Assembly: GCA_030950985.1 (NCBI GenBank)
Contig: JAUZQM010000011.1
Location: forward strand, 1 to 41,561
DNA length: 41,561 bases
Reading direction: 5' to 3'
DNA from: Mariprofundaceae bacterium
GTDB taxonomy: Bacteria; Pseudomonadota; Zetaproteobacteria; Mariprofundales; Mariprofundaceae
The translations under genes were made by a program, and so were the position numbers. Shown piece after piece: positions 3,284 to 28,743 of the stretch. How positions within the stretch are numbered: the first letter of the stretch is position 1; each line of letters starts with the position of its first letter. Under the pieces are notes generated by a model. It saw only the letters and a list, made by a program, of their open reading frames with translations, was not told where the DNA came from and made no database searches.

Positions 3284-3702
3284 ATGAAACGGACTCATTT
3301 TTCCGATGACACGTTCATCTTGTATGGTGTGAAAATATCGAAAAAGCATTCTTTATGATTATTTTTCAGCATGATTCAGAGGATTTATCTCGGTAACTAT
3401 ATTCAGAGATGGAAGTTGATACATTGTCATGAGTAGTGTTGAAAAATCATGGTATCGATGCCCCCGCAGGTTTCCGTGAGCAAGCTGATTCAAAAGGTGA
3501 AGGGAAAAGCATCGTACGAATTACAACGATAATTTATAGAGTTGCGAAAGGAATATTGGGGTCAACGGATATTTTTCATGCAATACGGGTAATGTGACGT
3601 ATATTGATGGGTACATGAAATAGAATGATAATTTCAAGCTTGCCGACTTTGAGTTGATCTGAAGCCGCTTTAAGGCGGAATCTTGCAGTCGGCTTTAGCC
3701 GA
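3284..3702 (+). pseudogene. Degenerate IS200/IS605-type TnpA (Y1/HUH transposase) relic
   Basis: Across several frames: HLVWCE + YRKK-like, then PPQVSVSKLIQKVKGKASYELQ..FIELRKEYWGQ..., then GNVTYIDGYMK..NDNFKLADFEL. This matches the order of IS200-type TnpA blocks, interrupted by stops and frameshifts. Confidence 0.75.
3664..3702. repeat. Two adjacent REP-like hairpins at the 3' end of the TnpA relic
   Basis: GCCGCTTTAAGGCGG followed by TCGGCT-TT-AGCCGA. Confidence 0.65.
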
Positions 3703-3816
3703 AACACCATATAAAATATACCCGATCAATGTAAGTTAACAGGCAAGTTCACCGGCATTAGCGATCAATGCGGCAAAGGCAAATATTGACACTTTGCTTT
3801 GCAGGCTAATAAGCAT

Positions 3817-10770: not shown

Positions 10771-10902
10771 CTATGTTTAGGATTCCATCACGGGAATCAT
10801 CGGTCATTCATTACTGCGATGAAAGTTATGTTGTGCGTCATTTAATGTCATATTTATTATAATATATGGATATATGCTTCATAAAAAAGATACCATACGT
10901 TC

Positions 10903-11205
10903 ATGTCTAACTTGATCCACGGTAGAACAACAGTTCATCATATTGGCTATCATATAGTCTGGTCAGTGAAATATCGGTGCACAAGGTACTTGTTGTAGAT
11001 GTTGAGATATCTCTGAAGAATATACGCCATAAAATTGAGTAAGATAAAGGGTATTTCTGCTAGAAGACTGTTCGTCAGACACCCAGATTTAAAGTCAAAA
11101 CTATGGGCTGGGTATTTGTGGAATCCATCAACATATATTGAAACCATCAAGCATCTTTCAGAAGATACTGTGCGTAAATATATTGAGGCTAAAAAAAAGA
11201 AATGA
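10903..11205 (+). pseudogene. Internally deleted IS200/IS605-type TnpA
   Basis: MSNLIHGRTTVHHIGYHIVWSVKYRCTRYLL*...*RIYAIKLSKIKGISARRLFVRHPDLKSKLWAGYLWNPSTYIETIKHLSEDTVRKYIEAKKKK*. Start and end of TnpA recognisable; HUH segment absent; two in-frame stops. Confidence 0.85.
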
Positions 11206-11210
11206 AAGAA

Positions 11211-11577
11211 GTTGTGAATAAAGCATACAAGTTCCGCATCTATCTTGAAACACTAAATGTGAAGGGGGTGATAAGAAACCGACACCTCTCAAAATTCATA
11301 TCCGATTGGGGTTGGGGTGAGTTTGTCAGGCAACTTAAATACAAAGTGGCCTAGTCTAGCTCAATCGTTATTCAAATTGGGCAATGGAAGCCATCCAGAA
11401 AACTTTGTCCTACCAAGGGATGTGATTACAAACATGATACATTAAAACTCTCGGATAAAGCATGGACATGTCCACAATACAACACAATCCATGATAGAAA
11501 CATCAACGCTGCCAAAAACATCCAATAAATTAGGCTGGAAGCGCCCGAATTAACGCCTGTGAAGAAAATACAAGCCG
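11211..11577 (+). pseudogene. Internally deleted TnpB (IS605 OrfB-type) remnant
   Basis: N-terminal NKAYKFRIY followed almost directly by C-terminal HLSKFISDWGWGEFVRQLKYKV, then KLCPTKGC..TLKLSDKAWTCPQYNTIHDRNINAAKNIQ* (zinc-finger and RuvC-III region). Most of the protein is missing. Confidence 0.85.
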
Positions 11578-11716
11578 ATTCGCTAAAACAGTAATCTCAT
11601 GCATCCGTTTGATGCTCTGTATTTTAATGCCGAGAGAACTTCACAAGGTTATTCAACATGTTTTGAAATATGTCTTTAGCTGTGCCTTGATACTTCATTC
11701 GAAGAGGATAAATCAG

Positions 11717-11754
11717 CACGTTACAAACGTGATAAATATGCATCATCATGCATA
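11717..11754. repeat. Two adjacent short hairpins downstream of the TnpB remnant
   Basis: CACGTTACAAACGTG and TATGCAT-CATC-ATGCATA. Confidence 0.55.
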
Positions 11755-11932
11755 CTAAATAGTTACCTATGAACTAGTAAAAAGACTCTTTTAAAAATTA
11801 AAATTCAGAATGTAAATCATCCATTTCTTTCAATTTCTAGATTTTCGATTAAAAGACTACTGGAATAACGCTGTTATAAAATAAGTTACAAAGAAGAACA
11901 TTAATAAATTCAACATAAAAGGCTCTATTACT

Positions 11933-19532: not shown

Positions 19533-20293
19533 AAATAACCACATGGAATGTCAATTCACTCAAAGTACGTTTGCCGCATGTTTTGGACTATTTAGAACAA
19601 GAAAATCCTGATGTCTTGGCTTTACAAGAAACCAAACAACAAGATAAAGATTTTCCACAATCAACCTTTGAAGATGCGGGTTATCATGTCCAATTTTCAG
19701 GGCAAAAGACATACAATGGCGTGGCGATGATTAGCAAACATCCGATGCAGGATGTGGTGATGAATCTGCCAAACTTGGATGACCCGCAACGCCGTTTGTT
19801 AGCCGCTACGATTGATGGTGTGCGTATTGTTGATGTGTATATACCCAATGGGCAGGAAGTGGGTTGTGATAAATATGACTATAAATTTCGTTGGCTTCAT
19901 GCCTTACGTGAATTTCTAGAAATAGAATTGAAACATCATCAAAAATTGATTTTACTGGGTGATTACAATATCGCTCCTGCCGATTTGGATATTCATGATG
20001 CTTCACGTTGGCTTGAAAAAATCATGTGTTCCACACCTGAACGAGAATGGTTTGATTCACTCATCACGATGGGATTGAGTGATACGATTCGCCAACGTCA
20101 CCCTCATGAAGCGATGCATAGCTGGTGGGATTATCGGATGAATGCTTACCGCCGAGGTTGGGGTATTCGTATTGATCATATCTTAGCGACGCAAGCTTTG
20201 CAGATTCAAGAAGGTGGTGTGCATACTGCTTATCGAGCTAAAGAACGCCCCTCGGACCATGCTCCTGTTTGGGCATGTTTATCAGATAACTGA
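19529..20293 (+). CDS. xthA: Exodeoxyribonuclease III (XthA-type AP endonuclease)
   Basis: [70 protein letters not shown]. Confidence 0.95.
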   Translation: MKITTWNVNSLKVRLPHVLDYLEQENPDVLALQETKQQDKDFPQSTFEDAGYHVQFSGQKTYNGVAMISKHPMQDVVMNLPNLDDPQRRLLAATIDGVRIVDVYIPNGQEVGCDKYDYKFRWLHALREFLEIELKHHQKLILLGDYNIAPADLDIHDASRWLEKIMCSTPEREWFDSLITMGLSDTIRQRHPHEAMHSWWDYRMNAYRRGWGIRIDHILATQALQIQEGGVHTAYRAKERPSDHAPVWACLSDN

Positions 20294-20474
20294 GCTTACG
20301 AAAACCGTCATTCACATGGTCTTTTAATCGGATTTCGGGGATGACATTGCTGTGTATTCATTACTCTGGGGGTGCGGCTTTAGCCGCGCTGAATAAAGTA
20401 TCAGGGCGTGGATAAATCCACACTTCCTAAACATGAAATGACGGTTTTTTTCATCAAAATACGTAACATCAGTT
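20288..20474 (+). mobile_element. MITE-like repeat, copy A
   Basis: Ends AACTGAgcTTACG...CGTAACATCAGTT. Shares TGGTCTTTTAATCGG-TTTCGGGGATGA-ATTGCTGTGTATTCATTA-TCTGG-GTGCGGCTTTAGCCGC with copies B and C. Confidence 0.75.
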
Positions 20475-20532
20475 AGATAAAATGTAAGCAGCTTGATGAA
20501 ACAACGACAACATCCTCAATGTTTATAAAAAA

Positions 20533-20548
20533 ATAGGGAAGACCCTAT
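20533..20548 (-). terminator. Small hairpin/terminator-like structure upstream of the DUF547 gene
   Basis: ATAGGG-AAGA-CCCTAT; on the minus strand followed by TTTTTTT. Confidence 0.5.
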
Positions 20549-20565
20549 CAGGATGCTCACAAACA

Positions 20566-21291
20566 ATGCGCTTATTATCATTATGTATATTATTATTTTA
20601 CCCAATATTGGCTCAAAGCCATGATTTTTCCAGTTGGAATGGTTTATTAAAAGATTATATCCACACAGGAAATAAACATGCTATTCAGCTCAATGTCGTC
20701 AATTATCAAAGTCTTCAACAAGATGCTCGTTGGCATCAAACACTTAATGAGCTCAAACAAGCCCATGTCAAAACATTACTGACAAAACAAGATAAACTCG
20801 CGTTTTGGATCAATAGCTACAACATTCTTGCCGTCAAAATAGTGGTAGAACACGCGGGTATTCAAAGTATCAAAGATGCGGGGCGTTGGTATACACCTAT
20901 TTGGAAAGAAGATGCAGGTATGGTGGCAGGTAAGGTTTATTCTTTAAATGATATTGAAAATAATATCTTACGTCCGATGGGCGAACCGCGTATTCACTTT
21001 GCGATTGTCTGCGCCTCGGTAAGTTGTCCTGATTTAAGAGATGAAGCTTATCAAGCTGATCGATTGGATGGACAGTTGAATGAACAAGTCCATCGTTTTT
21101 TAGCCAATCAAGGCAAAGGTGCGCGTTTACATCAAGGTAAATTGGAAGTTTCCTCAATTTTTAAATGGTTTGCCGATGACTTTGAACATGTCGGTGGTGT
21201 GATAGCTTTCATGCAAAAATATAGCACCATCAAATCCCATCCTATTGATGGTTACTTGGATTATGATTGGTCGTTAAACGCATCGCAATGA
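20566..21291 (+). CDS. DUF547 domain-containing secreted protein
   Basis: Signal-like N-terminus; KLAFWINSYNILAVKIVVEH, IENNILRPMGEPRIHFAIVCASVSCPDLRDEAY, SSIFKWFADDF. Confidence 0.9.
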   Translation: MRLLSLCILLFYPILAQSHDFSSWNGLLKDYIHTGNKHAIQLNVVNYQSLQQDARWHQTLNELKQAHVKTLLTKQDKLAFWINSYNILAVKIVVEHAGIQSIKDAGRWYTPIWKEDAGMVAGKVYSLNDIENNILRPMGEPRIHFAIVCASVSCPDLRDEAYQADRLDGQLNEQVHRFLANQGKGARLHQGKLEVSSIFKWFADDFEHVGGVIAFMQKYSTIKSHPIDGYLDYDWSLNASQ

Positions 21292-21350
21292 TGCATGAAA
21301 AGTCATCTGATTTTTCTACATAATTTATATTGAAAAATATATTGGGTCAA

Positions 21351-21466
21351 CATGCTTTGAAAGTGTGGCTTAATCCGCACTTCCAGAGTAATGAACACAC
21401 AGCAATCTCATCCCCGAAACCTTTCATCAGAGCTCTATGAGAATGACCGTATGCATAACATCAGCT
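21351..21466 (-). mobile_element. MITE-like repeat, copy B (opposite orientation to A and C; one end degraded)
   Basis: CATGCTTTGAAAGTGTGGCTTAATCCGCACTTCCAGAGTAATGAACACACAGCAATCTCATCCCCGAAA...TGCATAACATCAG aligns with the reverse complements of A and C. Confidence 0.75.
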
Positions 21467-21501
21467 GGTAAGAAAATAGATGTTCGTTAGCGTGCATCGC
21501 T

Positions 21502-22632
21502 ATGATAAAACAGATAAAACAGATGAATTTAGATGATTTGCGTGCGGCGATTGATTGTGTCGATGATCAAGTGCTTGAACTTATTCAACGCAGGTCTGAA
21601 CTTGCTGCGGCTGTGGGTGAACGTAAAATTTCACAAGCCAATGCGCCTTTTTATGTGCCTAGTCGTGAAGCCAGTATTATTCGACGCTTACTGGATCGCC
21701 ATCGAGAAAAAGCCAATTCAGGTCATGTTTCCAATATTCCAGATGAGGCGATTCATGGCATCTATCGGGGTATTATTGGGGCATGTTTAGCCTTAGAACA
21801 CCCGATGACCATCGCTTTTTTAGGTCCTGAAGGAACATTCTCACACACTGCTGCCCAACGTCAATTTGGTTATACCGCGCACTATCTCCCATGCCCCAAC
21901 TTAAATCGTGTCTTTGAAGAAGTGGAAGCTGGACGGGCCACTTATGGTGTTGTACCTGTTGAAAATGCCTTTGAAGGTGCGGTCAACGATACCCATGATC
22001 AATTTGCAGACAGCAATATGAAACTTTTAATCTGTGCTGAAATTCAACTTTCCATTCATCACCAACTGTTAAGTTCATGTACTGATCTTCAAGCTATTCA
22101 AGCCGTGTATTCGCATCCTCAAGCATTAGGACAATGTAAGTCATGGTTAGCTGCACATCTTCCTCATGCCAATGTATGCGATGTTGAATCCACAGCTCGA
22201 GGTGCAGAAATCGTACAACAAGATCAGCAAGCTCATAGTGCGGCTATTGCATCGATGGTGATGGCTGAAAAATTGTCACTGCCCGTACTCGCAGCGAATA
22301 TTGAGGATCATCATCAAAATACCACTCGTTTTTTCGTCATTGGACAACATGATTCACCCGCATCGGGGGAAGATAAAACAGGTTTGGTCATCACCATGAA
22401 AGATCAACCCGGTGCTTTATTTAATCTTATGAAGCCTTTTGCTGCACGCAATTTGGATTTGACCCGCATTGAATCCCGTCCATCCAAGAAAAAATTATGG
22501 GAATATGTATTTTTCATAGATATTTTAGGCCATCGTGATGATAAAGGTGTCAGCGAAGCGATTGACGATGTAAAAAATATGGGTGCAACAGTGAAAATTT
22601 TAGGTTCATACCCCATTTCGAGGAAGTTATAA
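21502..22632 (+). CDS. pheA: Bifunctional chorismate mutase/prephenate dehydratase
   Basis: LDDLRAAIDCVDDQVLELIQRRSELA (chorismate mutase), FLGPEGTFSHTAA, VPVENAFEGAV, ACT-domain GALFNLMKPFAARNLDLTRIESRP. Confidence 0.97.
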   Translation: MIKQIKQMNLDDLRAAIDCVDDQVLELIQRRSELAAAVGERKISQANAPFYVPSREASIIRRLLDRHREKANSGHVSNIPDEAIHGIYRGIIGACLALEHPMTIAFLGPEGTFSHTAAQRQFGYTAHYLPCPNLNRVFEEVEAGRATYGVVPVENAFEGAVNDTHDQFADSNMKLLICAEIQLSIHHQLLSSCTDLQAIQAVYSHPQALGQCKSWLAAHLPHANVCDVESTARGAEIVQQDQQAHSAAIASMVMAEKLSLPVLAANIEDHHQNTTRFFVIGQHDSPASGEDKTGLVITMKDQPGALFNLMKPFAARNLDLTRIESRPSKKKLWEYVFFIDILGHRDDKGVSEAIDDVKNMGATVKILGSYPISRKL

Positions 22633-22634
22633 TC

Positions 22635-23735
22635 ATGGACTGGATGACTCAAGCCGTAGCTCAAGCACAAGGTTTATATCCTTATGTTCCGGGTAAACCC
22701 ATCGAACAATTATTGCGTGAAAAAGGTCTTGATAAAGCAATCAAATTGGCTTCCAATGAAAATGCCTATGGTCCTAGCCCGAAAGCCATACTTGCCATAC
22801 ATGCCGCTATTGATGAATGTCACCGTTATCCCGATGGAGATTCGCATACACTCAAGGCTGCACTGGCTAAAAAACATGCGGTTCATACGAATCAAATTCT
22901 TTTGGGCAATGGTTCTAACGAAGTATTGGAATTGGTGATTCGCTGCTTTGCAGGTGTTGGTGATGAAGTCATTTACAGTCAGCATGGTTTTATTGTGTAT
23001 GCCTTGGCAGCGCAAGCGGCAGGGGCAACCCGTGTACCTGTACAAGATACTTCTGAACTCGAACATGATTTGGATGCCATGTTGTCAGCCATCACCGAGC
23101 GCACGAAAATCATTTGTATCGCCAACCCCAACAACCCTACAGGAACATTGTTATCCAATGATGCCCTACAAACGTTTTTCGATGCCCTACCACACCATAT
23201 CATCGTTATTTTAGATGAAGCATATGATGAATTTGTTAGCGATATTAAAACAGACAGTTTAACAACCCTTCAATATGATGGACTGGTTGTCAGCCGTACT
23301 TTTTCCAAAGCGTATGGTTTAGCAGGTTGTCGTATCGGTTATGCTGTTGGCAATGCGGATCTTCTTGAAGCCGTCAATCGTTTTCGTGAACCGTTTAATG
23401 TGAATAGTTTAGCACAGGTCGCCGCTTTAGCCGCTTTGGATGATGTTGATTGGGTTATGGATAAAGTCACACGTATCAAACAAGCACGTACTTTCTTGGA
23501 ACAACAACTTGCCAAGCGTGGCTTACTTTCTATTAAAAGTTTTGCTAATTTCATTTTATTGCATCATCCAGAAGCTTTAGAATTACACCAACAATTTGAA
23601 AATATTGGTATCATTACGCGTCCTTTAGCAGGTTATGGTTTACCTGATTATTTGCGTGTTTCTGTAGGCAATGATGAAGAAAACACTGCCTTTTTAGATG
23701 CTTTAGATACTGTATTATTCAAGTTAAAAGCTTAA
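22635..23735 (+). CDS. hisC: Histidinol-phosphate/aromatic aminotransferase (HisC type)
   Basis: KLASNENAYGPSPKA, ANPNNPTGTLL, DEAYDEF, SRTFSKAYGLAGCRIGYA. Confidence 0.93.
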   Translation: MDWMTQAVAQAQGLYPYVPGKPIEQLLREKGLDKAIKLASNENAYGPSPKAILAIHAAIDECHRYPDGDSHTLKAALAKKHAVHTNQILLGNGSNEVLELVIRCFAGVGDEVIYSQHGFIVYALAAQAAGATRVPVQDTSELEHDLDAMLSAITERTKIICIANPNNPTGTLLSNDALQTFFDALPHHIIVILDEAYDEFVSDIKTDSLTTLQYDGLVVSRTFSKAYGLAGCRIGYAVGNADLLEAVNRFREPFNVNSLAQVAALAALDDVDWVMDKVTRIKQARTFLEQQLAKRGLLSIKSFANFILLHHPEALELHQQFENIGIITRPLAGYGLPDYLRVSVGNDEENTAFLDALDTVLFKLKA

Positions 23736-23737
23736 AT

Positions 23738-24607
23738 ATGAGTCTAGCTATTCAACATTTAGTGGTTATTGGGACAGGTTTAATCGGTGGCTCATTGGCA
23801 TTGGCACTGAAACAAGCAGGCGTGGTCAAACGTGTCACAGGCGTTGGACGAAACGTCCAAAACCTTCAAGATGCCTTGCGTTTGGGTGTGATTGATGATG
23901 CGAGTCATCATATTCAAGAGGCTGTGAGCCATGCGGATATGGTGTGTGTGGCCGTGCCAGTTTCAGCATCTGCCCAAGTGTTTCGTGAACTTGCGCTTGC
24001 CTTACCTCACCATGCCTTGATTACGGATGCAGGAAGCACCAAACAATCGGTCATTCAAGATGCACACCATAGTGGTTTGGATATGTCTCGCTTTGTGCCA
24101 GCTCACCCTATTGCAGGTACAGAATATTCAGGAGCAGCGGCAGCTTTTCCAGAACTTTTCCAACACCATCGTTGTATTTTAACACCCACAGAACAAACCT
24201 CTGAAGATGCGATCATGAAAGTCAAAAAGATGTGGGAAGTAGCAGGTGCAAGCGTTGAAACCATGCATGCCAAGGAACATGATGAAATCATGGCTTCCAT
24301 TAGTCATTTACCGCATTTAACTGCATTTGCGATGATGAATGCCTTACAAAACCACGATGATTTTCGCTTTGCTGCAGGTGGCTTTCGTGATTTTACACGT
24401 ATTGCCTCATCATCGCCTGACATGTGGCGAGATATTAGCCTATGCAATGCTGCTGCCATTAGCGATAAAATTAATGCACTGCAAACAGAACTTGCAAGTC
24501 TTCGTGAGGCTTTACAAAGCCAAAATGGTGACGTTTTATTACAAAAATTTACGGCTGCAAAATTAGCACGCGATGCGTGGTTGGCAGCTGGTGGAGACAC
24601 GATATGA
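23738..24607 (+). CDS. tyrA: Prephenate dehydrogenase
   Basis: VIGTGLIGGSLALALKQAG, PAHPIAGTEYSGAAAA, SHLPHLTAFAMMNAL. Confidence 0.93.
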   Translation: MSLAIQHLVVIGTGLIGGSLALALKQAGVVKRVTGVGRNVQNLQDALRLGVIDDASHHIQEAVSHADMVCVAVPVSASAQVFRELALALPHHALITDAGSTKQSVIQDAHHSGLDMSRFVPAHPIAGTEYSGAAAAFPELFQHHRCILTPTEQTSEDAIMKVKKMWEVAGASVETMHAKEHDEIMASISHLPHLTAFAMMNALQNHDDFRFAAGGFRDFTRIASSSPDMWRDISLCNAAAISDKINALQTELASLREALQSQNGDVLLQKFTAAKLARDAWLAAGGDTI

Positions 24608-25941
24608 ATGTAGGTGGAACACTGATTGCAGGCCCAGCAAGCTCTGGATTAAGCGGCACATTAACCATTCCCGGTGATAAATCGATGTCACACCGTGCCA
24701 TTATGTTGGCATCGCTTGCAGATGGTATCACGGATATTCATGGTTTTTTACCCGGTGATGATTGCCTTGCAACGGCACAGATGTTTGTGGCGATGGGTGT
24801 TCGTATTGATTGGCTTAATGATGAAAAAACATCGCTTAAAGTCTATGGCGTTGGCTTGCACGGTTTAAAAAAACCAACAGATATCCTTGAGGCTGGAAAC
24901 TCTGGCACATGTGTTCGATTGATGATGGGTATTTTAGCCGCTCAACCCTTTGATTGTGTTCTTTCTGGTGATAGTTCTTTGCAAAAACGACCGATGAAAC
25001 GTGTTGCCGATCCTTTGCGGAAGATGGGTGCGAACATCACTGGCGAACACGATTTACTTCCCTTAACCATTCATGGCTCACCATTGCATGGTATTCATCA
25101 CACATCCAAAATAGCCAGTGCGCAGGTGAAATCATGCATACTTTTTGCAGGCCTTTATGCTCAAGGCGAAACAACCATCACTGAACCTCGTCCGTCACGC
25201 GATCACACCGAACGCATGTTGCCGCTGTTTGGGCAAAGCATCGATGTTGATACGCAATGTGTGATTCATTTGCAAGCCACAGGCAAACTGACCGCACCCA
25301 CAGAGCCTATTTACATTCCTGCTGACCCTTCATCGGCTTGTTTTTTTGCTGTAGCAGCATCTTTAATACCTGATTCACAAATTACCCTAAAGAGCATTGG
25401 CATGAACCCTTTGCGCAATGGTTGGCAACGTATTTTATCCGATATGGGTGCTGATTTAACTTTGCAACACAGCACTATAGTGGGTAAAGAAGAAGTCGCA
25501 GATATTCACATTTCACATCAGCGTTTGCATGCTATTGATGTTCATCCTGCGGATGTTCCCGATGCGATTGATGAATTTCCAGCCATGTTTGCAGCGGCAA
25601 GTCTGGCAGAGGGTACATTTAAACTGACAGAAGCCACAGAATTGCGCGTCAAGGAATCCGATCGGATTGCTGTGATGTCAACAGCGTTACGGCTTGCAGG
25701 TGCGGACATCGAAGAATTTCCCGATGGTGCGCATGTGCTTGGTGGAACATTGAAAGGTGGTGTGACCATTGATGCCCATGGTGATCATCGTATTGCCATG
25801 TCGATGGCGGTGGCAGCTCAATGTGCTGAATCTGATATTTGTATCAAAAATGCGGCAACGATTACCACTTCTTTTCCTGACTTTGTTCCTTTGGCTCAAC
25901 TATTAGGCATGAATGTTCATTGGGATGAGGTTGAACGATGA
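24604..25941 (+). CDS. aroA: 3-phosphoshikimate 1-carboxyvinyltransferase (EPSP synthase)
   Basis: GTLTIPGDKSMSHRAIML, LEAGNSGTCVRLMMGILA, RVKESDRIAVM, DHRIAMSMAVAA. Confidence 0.97.
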   Translation: MNVGGTLIAGPASSGLSGTLTIPGDKSMSHRAIMLASLADGITDIHGFLPGDDCLATAQMFVAMGVRIDWLNDEKTSLKVYGVGLHGLKKPTDILEAGNSGTCVRLMMGILAAQPFDCVLSGDSSLQKRPMKRVADPLRKMGANITGEHDLLPLTIHGSPLHGIHHTSKIASAQVKSCILFAGLYAQGETTITEPRPSRDHTERMLPLFGQSIDVDTQCVIHLQATGKLTAPTEPIYIPADPSSACFFAVAASLIPDSQITLKSIGMNPLRNGWQRILSDMGADLTLQHSTIVGKEEVADIHISHQRLHAIDVHPADVPDAIDEFPAMFAAASLAEGTFKLTEATELRVKESDRIAVMSTALRLAGADIEEFPDGAHVLGGTLKGGVTIDAHGDHRIAMSMAVAAQCAESDICIKNAATITTSFPDFVPLAQLLGMNVHWDEVER

Positions 25942-26636
25942 GTCATTTATATTGGCAACCCATTGAAGGTCTGCAAATTGCCATTGATGGGCCTTCAGGA
26001 TCAGGCAAAGGAACTGTTGCACTAGAATTGGGCAAAGAACTGGGTTTACCTGTATTGGATACAGGGCTGCTTTATCGCTTTACAGCTTGGCAAGCCCAAC
26101 AAGCTGAGATTGATATTCACAATGAAACGGCAGTATTACAACACCTTAAAGCAAGCCTTAAAAGCATGCAGTGGTCTATTGATGGAATATTTTTTTTAGG
26201 TAAAGATTGCACTTCACAGTTACGGAGTGAGGATGTCGGCGGCTTGGCATCGCTTGTCGCTGCTTCAAACAACATTCGCAAGACACTTTTGGATGTTCAA
26301 CGCGATTTGGCACAATCAGGTTGCGTGATGGATGGGCGAGATATTGGCAGTGTTGTACTCCCTCAAGCACAAGGAAAATTCTTCTTAACCGCCAGTGTTC
26401 GCGAACGCGCACGGCGACGCTGGTCTCAATTACGCGTGAATGATCCTGAATTATCGATTGAACACATTGTTCAAGATTTGACCGCACGAGATCAACGAGA
26501 TGCCAAACGTGAATGTGCGCCATTAAGTCATGTTGAAGGTGCGATAAAAATTGATTCAACCATCATGCGTGCGGATGAAGTGGTGGATCGAATGCTCTCC
26601 GTGTTGGAGCGTAAAGAACTGATTAAAGCTCTTTAA
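25938..26636 (+). CDS. cmk: Cytidylate kinase
   Basis: IAIDGPSGSGKGTVALELG, LDTGLLYRF, MDGRDIGSVVLPQA, RDQRDAKRECAPL. Confidence 0.96.
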   Translation: MSHLYWQPIEGLQIAIDGPSGSGKGTVALELGKELGLPVLDTGLLYRFTAWQAQQAEIDIHNETAVLQHLKASLKSMQWSIDGIFFLGKDCTSQLRSEDVGGLASLVAASNNIRKTLLDVQRDLAQSGCVMDGRDIGSVVLPQAQGKFFLTASVRERARRRWSQLRVNDPELSIEHIVQDLTARDQRDAKRECAPLSHVEGAIKIDSTIMRADEVVDRMLSVLERKELIKAL

Positions 26637-26690
26637 AAACAACGCAATAGTTTTTTTATTTTTTATTATGAATCACAGGTGGATGAAACA

Positions 26691-28370
26691 ATGGTGAATG
26701 AGCAAGCGACAGTCCCAGCGGAAGAAAACTTTAAGGCGATGTTTGAGGCATCTCTCAAACAAGAAAAACCCCTAAGAAAAGGGGCAAGTGTTTGTGGTAT
26801 GGTCGTTGAAGTGCGTGAAGAGCAAGTTATCATGGATGTCGGCGGCAAAAATGAAGGTTCTATTGCCATCACTGAATTTACAACATTAGGACTTGATACA
26901 CCCAAAGCTGGTGATGAAATTGATGTGATTGTTTTATCAACAGGTGGTTCGATTCAACTTTCTGTCTTGGAAGTAAAACGGCGTGAACAATGGTTAAAAA
27001 TTGATGCGGTTATCGCGGCTGATGAAACCATTGAAGCGACCATTACTTCAGAAGTCAAAGGTGGCTATCGTGTTGATTTAGCTGGCTTACAAGGTTTCAT
27101 GCCTCGCTCAGAAGTGGATATTCATGCAGGTATGAAATCAGATAAATTGATTGGTAATACCTATCAAGTAGCTATTTTGGAAGCGACTCATCGCCCTCAA
27201 AATATTGTTGTATCACGGAAAAAACCGATTGCTGATCTCGCTGATTTAGAACGTGCAAAATTCTTTAAAACCATCACTTTGGGTGATCGTGTGACAGGTA
27301 CTGTAAAACGCCTGACTGATTTTGGTGCATTTGTTGATTTGGATGGTGTGGATGCACTTTTGCATATTTCAGATATGACATGGCGCCGCATTCTTCATGC
27401 CTCTGAAGTATTAACGTTGGGGCAAACCATCACCGCTGAAATTATCAAACTTAACGCTGAAAGTGGTAAAATATCCATTTCCACCAAGTCTTTACAAGAA
27501 GATCCTTGGAATCATGTTGCAGGCACCTATGAAGCAGGTATGCGTTTAACGGGTACTGTGCGTAAACTTTTAGATTTTGGGGCTGTAGTTGAATTAGAAG
27601 CAGGTGTTGAAGGCATGATTCACCGTTCTGAAATGAGCTGGACGCGCAGTGACATTAAACCGACTGAAATGTTAGTTGAAGGTGATGTCGTTGATGTTGC
27701 TGTATTAGAAGTCGATGAAAAACAACGCCGTATTCGTTTAAGTTTGAAAGAAGTGGCTGAAAATCCTTGGCAAGCTTGGATGACAGAACATCCTGAAGGC
27801 TCACGTATTACAGGTAAAATTCGTAATATCACAGATTTTGGTTTCTTTGTTGGATTAAATAGTGAACTGGATGGCTTAGTCCATATTGGCAATATATCTT
27901 GGACAGCATTAGGGCAAGATGCCATTCAAAACTACCAAAAAGGGCAAGAAGTTGAATGTGTTATTTTGGGTGTTGATGTTGCAAAACAACGTATTGGGCT
28001 AGGTATTAAGCAATTAGAAGATGATCCTTTTGAAGTCTTTATGGCTGGCGTTAAACGTGGTGCATCTGTAAAAGGAACCGTCATTGAAGTCGCATCAGGC
28101 GCAGCTTGGGTGCAATTGGGTGAACATGTTCGCGCACGTTTGGCATTTCGTGAAGTGCCTCGTGATCAAAGTCTTAATGCTGGCGATGACATTGAAGCTA
28201 AGGTGATTGATGTCAATCGCCGCCGTAAGCAAGTTGATTTGTCCATTCGTCAATTTTTAAATGACGAAGAACGCGAAGCTGTTCGTCAATATAGCCAAAG
28301 TATTTCCAATGAAGATGCGCCTTCAGCGTTGGCATTGGCATTACAGCGTAGTTTTGATCAAAAAAAATAG
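26691..28370 (+). CDS. rpsA: Ribosomal protein S1
   Basis: Multiple S1 repeats (GTVKRLTDFGAFVDLDGVDALLHISDMTW; GKIRNITDFGFFVGLNSELDGLVHIGNISW); position after cmk. GTG at 26679 is an alternative start. Confidence 0.97.
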   Translation: MVNEQATVPAEENFKAMFEASLKQEKPLRKGASVCGMVVEVREEQVIMDVGGKNEGSIAITEFTTLGLDTPKAGDEIDVIVLSTGGSIQLSVLEVKRREQWLKIDAVIAADETIEATITSEVKGGYRVDLAGLQGFMPRSEVDIHAGMKSDKLIGNTYQVAILEATHRPQNIVVSRKKPIADLADLERAKFFKTITLGDRVTGTVKRLTDFGAFVDLDGVDALLHISDMTWRRILHASEVLTLGQTITAEIIKLNAESGKISISTKSLQEDPWNHVAGTYEAGMRLTGTVRKLLDFGAVVELEAGVEGMIHRSEMSWTRSDIKPTEMLVEGDVVDVAVLEVDEKQRRIRLSLKEVAENPWQAWMTEHPEGSRITGKIRNITDFGFFVGLNSELDGLVHIGNISWTALGQDAIQNYQKGQEVECVILGVDVAKQRIGLGIKQLEDDPFEVFMAGVKRGASVKGTVIEVASGAAWVQLGEHVRARLAFREVPRDQSLNAGDDIEAKVIDVNRRRKQVDLSIRQFLNDEEREAVRQYSQSISNEDAPSALALALQRSFDQKK

Positions 28371-28420
28371 TAACTATTTAGCTTACAGTTATTTCATTGC
28401 GTACTGAAGTGTTATAAACG

Positions 28421-28618
28421 GATGTTACGCACTTTGATGAAAAACTGATGTTACGCATCCCATCATTCCGTGGTCTTTTAATCGGTTTTTGGGGATGAAG
28501 ATTGCTGTGTATTTATTATTCTGGAAGTGCGGCTAAAGCCGCACTTCCAAAGCATGCCGAATTTAGAAACTAAGAGCATCGGATGATCTATCTTTTTCAG
28601 AAAGTACGTAACATCAGT
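28421..28618 (+). mobile_element. MITE-like repeat, copy C
   Basis: Left GATGTTACGCACTTTGATGAAAAA pairs with right TTTTTCAGAAAGTACGTAACATC. A second inner ACTGATGTTACGCATCC begins at 28444. Shared core as in A and B. Confidence 0.75.
28523..28548. repeat. Central perfect palindrome of copy C
   Basis: GGAAGTGCGGC-TAAA-GCCGCACTTCC. Confidence 0.85.
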
Positions 28619-28743
28619 GAAAAAGAAACGTCATCCCCGAAATATTTCGTCGGGGATCTCATGTTTGAAACAAAAGACCCTCAACACAAATTCTTAACAC
28701 AAACCCTCGAGGGTGACGACGAGAGTAGCAATACACCTCATAG

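Follow-up and report, generated by a model that had tools for sequence, protein, structure and literature searches.

A family of short non-autonomous mobile elements with ISAba11-group ends in a Mariprofundaceae genome

The transposases of the ISAba11 group of insertion sequences (ISs), classed as IS701-type in NCBIfam, carry the signature motif HHEK, which is reportedly defined in a 2012 paper by Rieck. ISAba11 is filed under the IS701 family (PMC7326120) and generates 5-bp repeats (PMC7885321). Type II MITEs, such as QMITE1 and QMITE2 of Coxiella, Chunjie of Geobacter, MITEAba12 and Correia elements, are shorter than 500 bp, have terminal inverted repeats and direct repeats, insert between genes, form stable hairpins and occur as truncated and nested copies (PMC10969869). 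REPIN/RAYT and ERIC elements are also found in many intergenic copies, with inverted palindromes at their centre.

The repeats described here occur in a stretch of 41,561 nucleotides (the window), which is contig C13 of the draft genome G000 of a Mariprofundaceae bacterium (1.75 Mb, 139 contigs, 88.8% complete). Like members of the ISAba11 group, they have the ends ACTGATGTTACGC(A) and target duplications of 5-6 bp. However, they are only 117-426 bp long, contain no gene and have nothing but the ends in common with the IS. They resemble the type II MITEs in each of the traits listed above, even if their sequence is different and another transposase family is concerned. In contrast to REPIN/RAYT and ERIC elements, they have transposase-type ends with target duplications on either side of their palindromes, and these palindromes were not found alone. 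The open literature searched, as far as the accessible texts go, yielded no published MITE of the ISAba11 type, and a literature search with the end sequence returned nothing relevant. This is an ordinary kind of mobile DNA; the family is new, as far as the open literature and the collections searched show.

The family and its copies in the window

Genome-wide, there are 114 exact matches to the 12-mer ACTGATGTTACG, vs. 0 for the reversed control, and 14-mer ends with at most two mismatches occur 234 times, vs. 12 for the control. These counts are far above chance. Complete elements, defined as non-overlapping inward-facing end pairs 117-426 bp apart, number 53 in 263 kb of stretches around copies, the total copy number being an estimate. 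The sequence-only reading of the window, with its three copies, was thus an undercount. Lengths are mostly 140-210 bp, and 41 of the 53 elements could be aligned to give a 186-bp consensus with an inverted repeat of 14-15 bp, ACTGATGTTACGCA, and a centre made up of two inverted palindromic units. Inverted repeats of ~40 bp, proposed earlier as ancestral, are seen in copy A but do not belong to the family consensus. A subfamily (C2, C26:14391, C62, and C81:25368) has kept the ends and the left part with a different interior. The closest pairs of copies are 95-96% identical and the median pairwise identity is 65%, so that the copies are of mixed, mostly not very recent age. By their length (under 500 bp), their terminal inverted repeats and their lack of coding capacity, the repeats are MITEs. 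The earlier recognition of a MITE-like, non-coding repeat at three places of the window is borne out, inverted ACTGATGTTACG ends being present at each. Many copies sit at contig ends. At one end of contig C26, a truncated-MITE unit of 148 bp forms a tandem array of 2.9 copies that runs off the contig (L296 416-847).

The window was searched with a profile of 41 aligned genomic copies, which includes copies A and C but neither copy B nor two decayed pieces; the scores of A and C are therefore partly by construction. Copy A (20289-20473, plus strand; nhmmer 1.8e-51) is a full-length MITE of 185 bp with a decayed left end, ACTGAGCTTACG, and an intact right end. The repeat itself had been recognized correctly, and only its boundaries, formerly placed at 20288-20474, had to be corrected. 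Its left end provides the TGA stop codon (20291-20293) of the xthA-like gene, and it is flanked by an imperfect 6-bp duplication, CAGATA (20283-20288) and TAGATA (20474-20479). Copy B (21351-21465, minus strand; nhmmer 1.3e-14, aligned 21464-21351) is a MITE without its other end. The sole terminus left (21454-21465) reads GCTGATGTTATG on the minus strand and is common, together with its flank as far as pheA, to the window and to the sister species G008.

Copy C (28444-28618, plus strand; nhmmer 6.7e-41) is a complete MITE of 175 bp with exact ends, ACTGATGTTACG and CGTAACATCAGT, and a central hairpin reduced to a single perfect 13-bp stem. The 5-bp target-site duplication GAAAA is found on its left (28439-28443) and on its right (28619-28623). 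Immediately to the left, the minus strand of 28418-28443 carries ACGGATGTTACGCACTTTGATGAAAA, the family right end reversed, which belongs to an older MITE; this end is split by copy C and is also present in G008. The older, truncated element is continued beyond copy C (28624-28659, minus strand). Copy C is thus inserted into an older MITE, and this nesting explains why the left boundary of copy C had been set at 28421 instead of 28444. Two decayed MITE fragments also lie on the minus strand: a central piece at 11649-11759 (nhmmer 3.4e-8), absent from the earlier annotation, and a left part at 11804-11874 (nhmmer 3.5e-4). An Rfam scan of the window gave no match.

Mobility and the partner transposase

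Perfect direct repeats are present directly outside ACTG...CAGT in 28 of the 53 complete elements (5 bp in 18 and 6 bp in 10), vs. about 0.9% for left flanks combined with the right flanks of other elements; 25 elements have no perfect 5-6 bp duplication. The target is biased in a symmetric manner, roughly T-TANTA-A, with T at -6 in 44 of the 53 elements and A at +6 in 49. Besides these duplications, an empty site was looked for and found at one locus. In G008, whose rpsA is 95% identical to that of the window, the rpsA-ihfB gap reads ...CACTTTGATGAAAAAAGCGTCATCCCCG..., vs. ...CACTTTGATGAAAA[175 bp]GAAAAAGAAACGTCATCCCCG... in the window. Copy C is absent there and the flank is intact: G008 has the empty site, and the window has the 5-bp GAAAA in duplicate. 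In G005 and G006, the same gap measures only about 45 bp. In the congeners G008 (L191) and G002 (L197), this gap also holds a palindromic repeat of another kind, whose ends are AACTATTCAGC and GCTGAATAGTTA-like, vs. a shorter stretch, AACTATTTAGCTTACAGTTATTTC, retained in the window.

The sequence-only reading had postulated mobility in trans by a partner transposase. An autonomous element with matching termini was found in Ghiorsea sp. isolate Faavne_M6_B18 (G043), a member of the Mariprofundales placed in the same family as the window's bacterium, which presumably belongs to another genus. Contig JAUZSH010000015 carries an intact IS of 1112 bp with the same ends (L130 489-1600). Its open frame of 354 amino acids matches the NCBIfam model NF049921, transpos_IS701_2, with 348.8 bits (cutoff 250), and also matches Pfam DDE_5. 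In the same genome, a MITE of 192 bp matches the ends of the IS perfectly over 40 bp and 19 bp and, by its sequence, is a direct link from IS to MITE. Some same-end pairs of this genome, the IS among them, are more than 1 kb apart. Another (G043:C6, ~1.66 kb; L131 540-2201; 1663 bp) looked like an IS but holds an unrelated split transposase; it is probably a MITE into which a different IS has inserted.

Many relatives of the Ghiorsea IS occur in other bacteria. They are ~1.1 kb long, with ends ACTGATGTTACGC(A) and duplications of 5-6 bp where visible. The same ends are found on ISs of Psychromonas, Methylobacter, a cyanobacterium, and Acinetobacter. Among these, a plasmid copy of Cyanobacterium sp. 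HL-69, annotated as “group ISAba11 transposase”, and the IS of Acinetobacter schindleri both score above the NCBIfam cutoff. The Ghiorsea transposase is 51-76% identical to the aligned group members. Residues H281, H304, E278, and K285, candidates for the HHEK motif, do not vary among the five members aligned.

The situation is different in the genome of the window, where the partner is not found intact. Six transposase matches were detected, all with internal stops and none full-length; one stands beside an exact end (C33:4983) and another finishes in a decayed end (C119). No intact partner transposase was found in this genome or in the 10 other searched genomes of its genus, and a search of the window's genome with PF01609 (DDE_Tnp_1) gave no match. 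Among 100 relatives, transposase matches are seen only in G043 and G000, and G005, G006, G008, and G011 carry the ends without a transposase match. Repeated ISs are easily lost from incomplete assemblies. With broken remnants only, the MITEs thus look like a population whose transposase has been lost or was not assembled. As a MITE may outlive its transposase, the missing intact gene bears on present mobility and not on origin. Finally, the MITEs of the window share nothing with the IS beyond the ends and hence are not simple deletion derivatives of it.

Altogether, the repeats are very probably non-autonomous MITEs with ISAba11-group ends, multiplied in trans by a DDE transposase of that group (transpos_IS701_2). 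That this transposase was the mover we infer from the observed ends, duplications and empty site, the relative's intact IS, and the remnants, which lend support to the mobility in trans proposed earlier. According to this model, the transposase would act in trans on MITEs carrying its 14-15 bp ends, and insertion produces a 5-bp, sometimes 6-bp, duplication at AT-rich T-TANTA-A sites located between genes. Transposase is probably now in short supply in this genome, and the copies of the family would survive as inert spacers and homologous recombination sites.

Gene order, central hairpins and RNA folding

The location of copies A and B at synteny breaks relative to G008 suggests an additional role of the repeats as sites of recombination. 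The pheA-side half of copy B is found in G008 with its flank, but its neighbour there is not DUF547; it is an ABC transporter substrate-binding gene. After xthA, that genome has a MITE end and next a gene that reads as uvrA (gene names assigned by eye). In the genome of the window, the small contig C95 bears a repeat of copy A's right part and of the DUF547 start (~190 bp); a different gene adjoins it, as does another MITE. Together with the single end of copy B, these arrangements suggest, at the level of draft genomes, that recombination between copies may have occurred. One may go further and consider the MITEs as being now chiefly recombination sites, with a present effect on gene order and not on expression. 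We hold this reading to be tentative, with slightly more against it than for it. Indeed, the draft genomes are fragmented and do not show the direction, the mechanism or the order of the rearrangements; moreover, the window's assembly yielded no orthologue of the transporter gene of G008. Such a role is compatible with multiplication by an ISAba11-group transposase and does not exclude it. It would be a larger step to see in orphan MITEs, stranded by the decay of an ISAba11-type transposase, a main driver, by recombination between copies, of gene-order change between close zetaproteobacterial species, and we consider this rather unlikely. On contig C95 (L090), GTTCACTGCCGCACAGGCAGCTTAGAAA occurs three times, with differing spacers, in the last ~200 bases, beside two MITEs, which stretch we take to be the start of a CRISPR array with a type I-F-like repeat.

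The central hairpins had been called REP-like. If the elements were REPINs, two inverted REPs (GGAAGTGCGGCTTTAGCC) would be moved by a RAYT (Y1) transposase and the ACTGATGTTACG ends would be incidental, in agreement with the two inverted palindromic units of the centre and with the two RAYT-like Y1 genes of the genome. This is most improbable. In the fetched stretches, all 43 such motifs lie within 200 bp of an ACTGATGTTACG end, and the Y1 genes have none nearby; core-only matches are mostly decayed MITEs with remnants of the ends, and the target duplications are placed at the ACTG ends. A REPIN/RAYT origin of the hairpin was therefore rejected, and the hairpin is to be regarded as part of the MITE. 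The two RAYT-like Y1 genes themselves (C98, L287; C137, L288) are intact frames of 321 codons with no MITE-type REP nearby. The window has its own Y1 remnants. Positions 10900-11540 correspond to a decayed IS200/IS605-type element, with a Y1 piece at 11038-11190 (PF01797, E 3e-9) and an apparent TnpB zinc-finger remnant downstream. A second Y1-transposase remnant, at 3446-3710 (PF01797, E 3.2e-8), contains two stops, and a GGCTTTAGCC hairpin is found at 3691, just downstream of it.

A role at the 3′ ends of genes, possibly in RNA stability, had also been proposed. All 53 complete copies are intergenic: no open frame contains one, in stretches of which a simple ORF caller scores 82% as coding; this test could miss a gene split by an insertion. 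The copies are flanked by 56 3′ and 42 5′ gene ends, vs. 119 and 113 for intergenic gaps generally, so that a preference for 3′ ends is at most slight. Copies A and C fold better than shuffled sequences (z -4.2 and -5.65), and stable RNA folds of this kind are as expected of an inverted-repeat element. RNAalifold applied to 37 copies gave weak support for the central stem with almost no compensatory changes, which offers no argument for a selected RNA structure. None of copies A, B, and C has a terminator-like site with a T run. With neither special 3′ placement nor terminator, an RNA-stability role is unsupported. That the copies are conserved transcription terminators or 3′-end stabilisers at fixed places, alike by chance, might be upheld from these folds and from the gene that precedes each of A, B, and C, but it is scarcely credible, being contradicted by the empty site of copy C and the target duplications, by the different neighbours at A and B, and by the lack of both a clear 3′ preference and T-run sites.

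Significance of the family

These elements constitute a high-copy MITE family tied to a transposase group known mainly from Acinetobacter. The fragmented state of these draft genomes may be due in part to the MITE copies. The same 14-base ends are conserved from Proteobacteria to cyanobacteria and hence provide a handle to search for the MITEs of this group in any genome.
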